Positions 40,463-43,400 of a stretch of 64,000 bases of DNA are shown here, piece by piece. The DNA comes from Sipunculus nudus (lineage: Eukaryota > Annelida > Sipuncula > Golfingiida > Sipunculidae): the NCBI GenBank assembly GCA_026874595.1, contig CM049315.1, positions 66,969,916 to 67,033,915 on the forward strand. Direction: 5' to 3'. The notes beneath the pieces were generated by a model. The model made no database searches, was not told where the DNA came from, and saw nothing but the letters and a program-made list of their open reading frames with translations. The position numbers and the translations under genes were made by a program. Within the stretch, counting starts at the first letter, position 1, and each line of letters opens with the position of its first letter.

Positions 40463-43400
40463 CTGAATAGGGAAAAAAAACAGGGATTGTGATAGTACAT
40501 GAATTTTAATACAGATATACAGATGTTCAGGAAATAGACTTTATCTATAATATGATTCATTGGTACATTTTTTTAAATATTTTTTTTCAATGGTGAAGGT
40601 AATTGCTTCATTTTTTAATGCTGACTTATCTCATTCTTAATTTAACCTAAGTATGTCCATCTGCACAGCTTTCATTTTGGTTTGGGACTACTTAACAAGG
40701 TGGTTGCTTCCTATCATTCTATTTTGTATTCTGATGTCACCAAGCCTGGGGTCTACTGCACCTGTGGGTCTTGGATATATAAGCACCTCCACTGATGGGT
40801 CATAACACTGAGGAACCTCTCAAAGATGTACTTTTAAGGGAGTGATACTTGGCTGTGGGGAACAGAATTCCAATTAAGCCTGCAGAGTGCTCAGCCTGTG
40901 TGGATCGACTGAGGCCATGTCCAAATCAGTGGCTCAGATCAGGTTTCAGTTAAAATCCCATTATTTCCTTTCCTCAAATTTGAAAACTTCCTGAATATAA
41001 AGTCAGTCACAGTGGGTGTTTGTACTAATTATTGTTTGTACGACATCAGGCATGGTAATACTTACTGACATGACAGATGGGGTTATCCTTACTGACATGA
41101 CGGATATGCTCTACAATTTCAGCTCTTACATCAGACACATCCCACATTGACATGAATGTATCAACGCTCTACAACATGAGCTCTGACATCAAACATTTTT
41201 TCTACGGACATGACAGATGGGGTAATACTTACTGACATGACGGAAATGCTCTACAACATCATCTCTGACATCAGACACATCCTACATTGACATGAATGTG
41301 TCAACGCTCTACAACATCAGCTCTTACATCAGACATGGTAATACTTACTGACATGACAGATGTGGTTATACTTACTGACGTGACGGACATGCTCTACTAC
41401 ATCAGCTCTGACATCAGACACATCCCACATTGACATGAATGTGTCAATGCTCTACAACATCAGCTTTTACATCAGACATGGTAATACTTACTGACATGAC
41501 AGATGTGGTTATACTTACTGACGTGACGGACATGCTCTACTACATCAGCTCTGACATCAGACACATCCCACATTGACATGAATGTGTCAACGCTCTACAA
41601 CATCAGCTCTTACATCAGACATGGTAATACTTACTGACATGACAGATATGGTTATACTTACTGACGTGACGGACATGCTCTACTACATCAGCTCTGACAT
41701 CAGACACATCCCACATTGACATGAATGTGTCAACGCTCTACAACATCAGCTCTTACATCAGACATTGTAATACTTACTGACATGACAGATATGGTTATAC
41801 TTACTGACATGACAGATGGGGTTATACTTACTGACGTGACGGACATGCTCTACTACGTCAGCTCTGACATCAGACACATCCTACATTGACATGAATGTGT
41901 CAACGCTCTACAACATCAGCTCTTACATCAGACATGGTAATACTTACTGACATGACAGATGTGGTTATACTTACTGACGTGACGGACATGCTCTACTACA
42001 TCAGCTCTGACATCAGACACATCCTACATTGACATGAATGTGTCAACGCTCTACAACATCAGCTCTTACATCAGACATGGTAATACTTACTGACATGACA
42101 GATGTGGTTATACTTACTGACGTGACAGACATGCTCTACTACATCAGCTCTGACATCAGACACATCCCACATTGACATGAATGTGTCAACGCTCTACAAC
42201 ATCAGCTCTTACATCAGACATGGTAATACTTACTGACATGACAGATGTGGTTATACTTACTGACGTGACGGACATGCTCTACTACATCAGCTCTGACATC
42301 AGACACATCCCACATTGACATGAATGTGTCAACGCTCTACAACATCAGCTTTAACATCAGACATGGTAATACTTACTGACATGACAGATGTGGTTATACT
42401 TACTGACGTGACGGACATGCTCTACTACATCAGCTCTGACATCAGACACATCCCACATTGACATGAATGTGTCAACGCTCTACAACATCAGCTTTAACAT
42501 CAGACATGGTAATACTTACTGACATGACAGATGTGGTTATACTTACTGACGTGACGGACATGCTCTACTACATCAGCTCTGACATCAGACACATCCCACA
42601 TTGACATGAATGTGTCAACGCTCTACAACATCAGCTTTTACATCAGACATGGTAATACTTACTGACATGACAGATATGGTTATACTTACTGACATGACAG
42701 ATGGGGTAATACTTACTGACATGACGGACATGCTCTACTACGTCAGCTCTGACATCAGACACATCCCACATTGACATGAATGATGCACAGCAGTTGCCCT
42801 CCCCCAGGGCCGGGTTGATAAATGGGATGTGGGAGAAAGAGTAGTAGTGAGCTATGGCAGCGAAGAACATCTCAATGCAAATGCAAAAATCCTGAAAATA
42901 TACAAATATTATTGATATTGTATGCAGTCAGCTTAAAGTATAAATTACCATCTCCAGACAGCACATATACATACAGAATACCTTGAACTATTTTCCTGAA
43001 ATGAGTTGACCATGTCTGTGCAGAAAACAGCTTTTTAAAGGAAAGATCTACTGTTATTTTGCCAAAAGCACCTAAACCACTACATATTTTTTCACAGACT
43101 TTTCCTGAAAGGTGATTATATTCAAGGTGATTATATTCTGGATGCAGCTGAATTAAAATTTTAATTTTTGTCAATTGGAATGCTCTTAGTTTTGTTCAAA
43201 GTTTTAAAAAAAAAGTTACTGATAAAATTTTAAATTAAATTTTTGTCATTTAGGTTGGGAATTTTTTTTTAATTTGGGCATTAACTGGACCAATATCATG
43301 TGCTGGTGAGTCTTTCTTGTTAAGGACTAATAATCATTAACAAGTGACCCATGGGTCATGACACTAAGCTGCCAAGCATGACCTTCGACATCATGGGCTG

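Follow-up and report, generated by a model that had tools for sequence, protein, structure and literature searches.

Minisatellites at exon/intron boundaries

The closest described systems are the mirages of amphioxus, which are minisatellite-like tandem duplications of exon/intron boundaries on either the donor or the acceptor side (PMC3087553). As characterized in the surveyed passages of the two relevant papers, mirages have a homogenised interior, from which the boundaries of the cluster are excluded, and are built of units of 10-160 bp (PMC3087553, PMC3902484). The genes described there as carrying them are Adh3 and the globins BflGb6 and BflGb9 (PMC3087553), along with PGBD5 and TnC (PMC3902484). 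In the globins the units measure 150-160 bp, and the haplotypes of BflGb6 given in the published excerpt have 6 and 3 units (PMC3087553). A further trait of mirages is a length that varies between alleles or cells. On the basis of data on Adh3 and of RT-PCR on the globins, these passages conclude that mirages appear not to disturb splicing (PMC3087553, PMC3902484), and a role in intron gain has been proposed for them (PMC3087553). A limited survey of the literature, covering papers in part, found no mirages outside lancelets, which is no proof of their absence elsewhere.

Two further systems deserve consideration. In the human IFI6 (6-16) gene, two downstream units of a minisatellite serve as donors, resulting in three mRNAs (PMC4526556, in a passage citing Turri, Cuin and Porter 1995). 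Additionally, the excerpted text on human segmental duplications reports that variable internal tandem repeats at exon-intron boundaries can alter splicing (PMC2812944). The surveyed portions of PMC2206037 and PMC12783039, the latter concerned with intronic minisatellites, yielded no duplicated boundary.

A donor minisatellite in a TMEM184C-like gene

The window, i.e., the entire 64-kb stretch of DNA analysed here, has a GC content of 36.7% and a CpG observed/expected ratio of 0.34. Its GC content is unlike that of amphioxus (Branchiostoma), the genome of which has ~41% GC, but this proves nothing about the host. The minus strand of the window carries, between positions 39960 and 63730, a TMEM184C-like gene with six exons recognized here; joined, these give a frame of 350 residues that runs to the stop, while the N-terminal part lies beyond the window. 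The joined protein matches PF03619 with an E-value of 3.1e-58 and 197.6 bits, as against a gathering cut-off of 24.9, over profile positions 121-266 of 267, which places it in the TMEM184/organic solute transporter alpha family. Exons A (63656..63730), B (61193..61286), C (54794..54906) and D (51195..51288) were identified by tblastn with a human TMEM184C sequence and by frame, whereas exon F (39960..40462), the last coding exon found and not among the five of the six exons that this query matches, was placed by its open frame and its acceptor, the AG of which ends at 40463. The 175-nt exon E (42717..42891), from which the units of array 1 are derived, has 38 of 70 residues (54%) identical to human TMEM184C in the tblastn search. 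This identity, the continuous six-exon frame and the PF03619 match bear out the exon that the initial annotation had called at 42717-42891. Pfam searches with the raw minus-strand frames of 39960-49958 gave no match, probably because the exons are short; exon E had no match among PDB sequences, and there were neither Rfam hits at the gathering score nor tRNAs.

Exon E ends in TCA, followed across the junction by GTAAGTATT, and the authentic 5' splice site, donor 1 (TCA/GTAAGT, with the donor at 42711..42716, minus strand), is recognized as such by homology and frame. It stands at the head of array 1 (41043..42782, minus strand), a donor minisatellite of mostly 143-bp units, for which Tandem Repeats Finder (TRF) reports periods of 143, 286, 429 and 456 bp, jointly over 41043-42782. 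The row with the 286-bp period scores 2726, and the repeats are plainly beyond chance. Alignment recovers the exon sequence inside the units: downstream of exon E lie 11 copies of its last 66 nt, each 92-97% identical to it and each ending at a donor, which with the original exon end makes 12, in agreement with the approximately twelve 143-bp units of exon tail and donor described earlier. The human TMEM184C query that detects the exons also matches eleven tandem copies in tblastn, through versions of a 23-residue segment, in 3 of which a stop replaces the W.

In total, array 1 contains 25 donor-like sites, namely the real donor, 23 further GTAAGT and one GTAAGG, and the earlier estimate of roughly two dozen donors holds. 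Counting the real donor, 24 sites read exactly GTAAGT, each of them within TCAGTAAGTAT; they make up 24 of the 47 occurrences of this hexamer on the minus strand of the window, the plus strand having 8. The inner donors close a 27-bp sub-repeat which, as measured by common suffix, has only its last 12-16 nt in common with the exon. By our reading of the sequence, a diverged second copy of the exon sequence follows the inner donor and carries no donor at its own end. The designation of the array as a splice-donor minisatellite was right, and the second donor per unit attributed to a diverged half-unit does exist, but it terminates the 27-bp sub-repeat rather than the diverged exon copy behind it.

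Comparison of the units over 77 nt reveals that those of the interior are 98.9% identical on average, while the exon is 95.8% identical to the interior units and 92.2% to the distal edge, and the interior and the distal edge share 91.3% identity. This is mirrored by a single heptamer, which reads CATGTCA in the exon and the two distal units and CACGTCA in the nine interior units. Such homogenisation of the interior, with the edges spared, is the pattern expected from unequal exchange or conversion. The distribution of substitutions is not informative regarding the donors: none of 9 variants falls in the 22 donor columns of 143 in 8 of the 12 units, where ~1.4 would be expected.

Some other features of the introns of this gene may be recorded. 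In the intron containing array 1, positions 40762-40852 form a possible cryptic exon, with an AG resembling an acceptor (score 6.5) and, 91 nt away, a GT whose predicted U1 duplex is -9.5; we read this stretch as having an in-frame TGA. A 5.6-kb array of 116 copies of a 48-bp unit with strong GC skew occupies 55248-60841 in another intron, and a similar 48-bp unit recurs at 53665-54213 between 27-bp arrays of other sequence. Additionally, an element at 44800-45800 with recurring AAGGTCAAAGGTCAAGGTCAC-like blocks represents an interspersed repeat; it is preceded by a TTAGCTCAGCTGAC motif that is found again near 50980.

Further arrays at splice junctions in the window

Junction-spanning arrays are not limited to the intron downstream of exon E, with two more being detected by TRF in the 64-kb window. 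Array 2 (63468..63678, minus strand) is a donor minisatellite of seven 30-bp units, in which the last part of exon A (..PITTMIAL) is repeated together with the GTAAGT that follows it. Three of its six decoys are lost or weakened, the second reading GTAAAT, the third GTAAGG and the sixth having no GT, and 3 of 11 substitutions lie in the 7 donor columns of 30. Array 3 (5691..6079, minus strand) is instead an acceptor minisatellite of eight 49-bp units, made up of a poly-pyrimidine tract and CAG (TTTTTATTTTCAG) joined to ~36 nt from the start of a carboxylesterase exon. This exon (5555..5726, minus strand, the 3' end being approximate) encodes PICYQDL...DDCLYLNIY and a further 10-residue segment and, like the other exons of its gene (PF00135, E-value 4.6e-51), was identified by tblastn with a CES1 sequence. 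The protein is matched by the acceptor of the 3'-most copy, which puts the exon start at 5726; among the seven upstream acceptors, one has AA instead of AG and only one, 147 nt upstream, retains the frame. As judged by homology and frame, the junction fitting the protein is in 3 of 3 arrays the copy that touches the exon, which is the first for the donors and the last for the acceptor.

The recurrence of this anatomy in three arrays of different sequence also bears on the explanation that array 1 is an artefact of assembly or the product of a mis-called exon. Tandem arrays are often mis-assembled and the copy number may accordingly be wrong; however, the units are told apart by private substitutions, by a length variant of 27 bp and by the divergence of those at the edges, and exon E encodes conserved protein, such that we consider this explanation extremely improbable.

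The placement of arrays on junctions was assessed with 18 junctions, 11 from the TMEM184C-like gene and 7, partly approximate, from the carboxylesterase gene, leaving out the mtIF3 gene. As arrays, 26 intervals hand-picked from 63 TRF rows and merged to 22 were used, dinucleotide, period-4 and nested rows having been dropped and some rows joined; they amount to 12,794 bases or ~20% of the window. Under these definitions, 3 of the 18 junctions fall in arrays as compared with 3.1 expected (P 0.56), and 3 of the 22 arrays contain a junction, the expectation being 1.7 (P 0.20). When the arrays are restricted to those of at least 200 bp (n = 10), the corresponding values are 3 junctions against 2.95 expected (P 0.52) and 3 arrays against 1.5 (P 0.15). 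Since this enrichment is not significant, no claim of targeting is made; arrays that engulf a junction with the outermost copy intact may simply be those able to survive.

In Pfam searches with the six frames of positions 1-39998, the only matches were of the carboxylesterase type and to IF-3. The latter come from a plus-strand domain at 22233-22562 that resembles translation initiation factor IF-3, with PF05198 above and PF00707 below the cut-off, upstream of which tandem arrays are present at 20730-21633.

What could mark the real donor

The multiplicity of equivalent sites in array 1 raises the question of how the real donor might be distinguished from its copies. The predicted U1 duplex has an energy of -7.5 kcal/mol at the real donor and at 22 of the 24 array positions computed, a set which does not contain the donor at 41777 and includes one mutated 27-bp position not counted as a donor; the two exceptions are this mutated position (-1.6) and the GTAAGG (-5.0). 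In a scan of all GTs in 41043-42690, 23 of 236 reach -6.5 or better, the best being -7.5, and 23 of the 24 decoys have an 11-nt U1-pairing sequence identical to that of the real donor. The equality of the predicted duplexes rules out a difference in strength as the mark of the real donor. RNA structure is likewise ruled out in this role, for among the 25 sites only one has a predicted accessibility below that of the real donor, 0.006 (range 0.001-0.075).

Acceptors were scored with a rough frequency matrix. None of the 145 AGs in array 1 scores 4 or more, the best, at 41231, having 2.0, while the seven real acceptors score 1.3-7.6, with six of them at 4.0 or above. Independent exons inside array 1 are on this count judged unlikely, with the qualification that on this rough scale the real acceptor of exon C, at 1.3, also falls below 4 and is even outscored by the AG at 41231. 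Array 2 similarly has no AG scoring 4 or more among 12. In array 3, where acceptors are present, none of 24 GTs reaches -6.5 or better. What sets the real donor apart is its neighbour, a 175-nt exon with its own acceptor, which scores 4.0. Because U1 strength and accessibility fail and array 1 is without an AG scoring at least 4, exon definition is the best-supported inference, rather than a demonstrated fact, as to how the real donor would be chosen.

The reading frame constrains the consequences of using the other sites. Donors 2 (42689) and 3 (42662), lying 27 and 54 nt beyond the real one within 42657..42689 of the minus strand, would add 9 and 18 residues respectively in frame, whereas from donor 4 the reading frame would reach a TGA that precedes the last coding junction by 96 nt, with larger distances for the five later donors examined. 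These consequences were worked out for 9 of the 25 donors, six of them from the fourth on; the remaining ones would encounter the same TGA, as all donors from the fourth on lie behind it. The earlier description of in-frame donors 27 nt apart, of 9-residue steps and of a TGA after the third donor is in accord with this analysis. Frame alone is not decisive, given that it is also preserved by two decoys of array 1, namely donors 2 and 3, and by a single upstream acceptor in array 3.

Taken with the amphioxus precedent, these observations suggest that array 1 is probably a mirage-type minisatellite, made of near-neutral tandem duplications which are tolerated through the choice of the exon-proximal donor. 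It would have arisen by a tandem duplication that took in both the end of the exon and the adjoining 5' splice site, with subsequent growth into the intron. As exon definition pairs a donor with the acceptor of its own exon and the array offers hardly any acceptor, the spliceosome would mostly use the exon-proximal donor, which would render the copies nearly neutral, with their turnover driven by unequal exchange or conversion. If donor 2 or 3 were occasionally used, 9 or 18 residues would be inserted. A transcript spliced from donor 4 or any later one would have the TGA over 50 nt ahead of the last coding junction and is predicted to undergo nonsense-mediated decay. In keeping with exon-proximal choice, it is the first copy that provides the exon end expected from the conserved protein. 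On the other hand, older in vitro work with duplicated donors reportedly found the intron-proximal donor to be preferred under high SF2/SRSF1, which speaks against this explanation in that it would predict use of the downstream copies.

The initial annotation had left a choice between an array that is ignored and one that generates variants. The precedent of amphioxus favours the former, though it might not carry over to this host, and by the precedent of human IFI6 the first few donors could be usable. In the strong form of the latter possibility, donors 1-3 would all be used productively, yielding isoforms whose tail beyond the membrane segments is lengthened by 0, 9 or 18 residues. Donors 1-3 do have equal U1 energies, are spaced 27 nt apart and are in frame, with both 27-mers open, and in IFI6, as the cited passage has it, two downstream repeat units used as donors suffice for three mRNAs (PMC4526556). 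However, the analogous array 2 would be incapable of this, since of its six decoys the four examined read an in-frame TAA at once. Further, array 1 has a near-identical pair of 27-mers in its interior (41831-41777), which lies past the stop and is unable to contribute residues, and the triple donor therefore need not be kept for coding. We accordingly regard productive use of all three donors as rather unlikely.

A function for the decoys themselves, proposed earlier as decoy binding of U1, appears more doubtful still. Here, the array would hold U1 or divert splicing to unproductive transcripts, with the copy number setting the level of TMEM184C; this could draw on the 23 decoys with full-strength predicted U1 duplexes and on the stop that donor 4 places 96 nt, and later donors farther, upstream of the last coding junction. 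Yet array 2 gives no sign that decoys are kept intact, with three of its six lost or weakened and 3 of 11 substitutions hitting donor columns, and the share of junctions located in arrays equals the chance expectation. With no evidence for it found in these data, we deem a regulatory decoy very improbable.

Implications and comparison with known systems

Array 1 places 25 donors after a single exon defined by its acceptor, and 24 of these donors share an identical TCAGTAAGTAT; it constitutes a clean natural test of position versus strength in the choice of 5' splice sites, where position may stand for either exon definition or being transcribed first. The three arrays in one 64-kb window pose this same question in both donor and acceptor versions, and they additionally bear on the idea, put forward in the surveyed text on amphioxus, that such arrays seed new introns (PMC3087553). 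More speculatively, the host might not be a lancelet and splice-junction minisatellites of donor and acceptor kinds might be frequent in its genome, a combination to which we give a tentative standing well short of probable. If it were to hold, genes lining up as many as 25 donors, 24 of them identical, would furnish natural experiments on site choice by the spliceosome, and allelic changes in copy number could shift protein length in steps of 9 residues. A host other than a lancelet would by itself mean that this type of array is more widespread than the surveyed literature reports.

Among the human systems, IFI6 resembles array 1 in having a minisatellite at an exon end, the repeat units of which supply 5' splice sites. 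The two differ in that the unit of array 1 includes 66 nt of exon, and in that two downstream units of IFI6 are used in mRNA, the extra donors of array 1 being candidate sites. The repeats in segmental duplications, as the excerpt of PMC2812944 describes them, belong to recently duplicated primate genes, have a mean unit of 30 bp in 4 copies and give rise to novel introns, as opposed to the rows of equal donors seen here.

The likeness to the amphioxus mirages is closer, and array 1 probably belongs to the kind already published under that name, which in the literature surveyed comes only from lancelets. As in amphioxus, a boundary between exon and intron of the host gene is part of the repeat unit in arrays 1, 2 and 3, and in all three the authentic boundary, as judged by homology and frame, lies at the exon side, a criterion that the published passages imply. 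Array 1 also shares with mirages a homogenised interior with edges that are not (0.989 within the interior, 0.958 between exon and interior and 0.913 between the interior and the distal edge). In array 1 the exon tail is present in 11 additional copies and donor-like sites number 24 beyond the real one, as compared with 6 and 3 units in the haplotypes of BflGb6, and its copy number is above the figures for amphioxus mirages found in the surveyed passages. Finally, the window combines two such arrays in one gene with a third in another.
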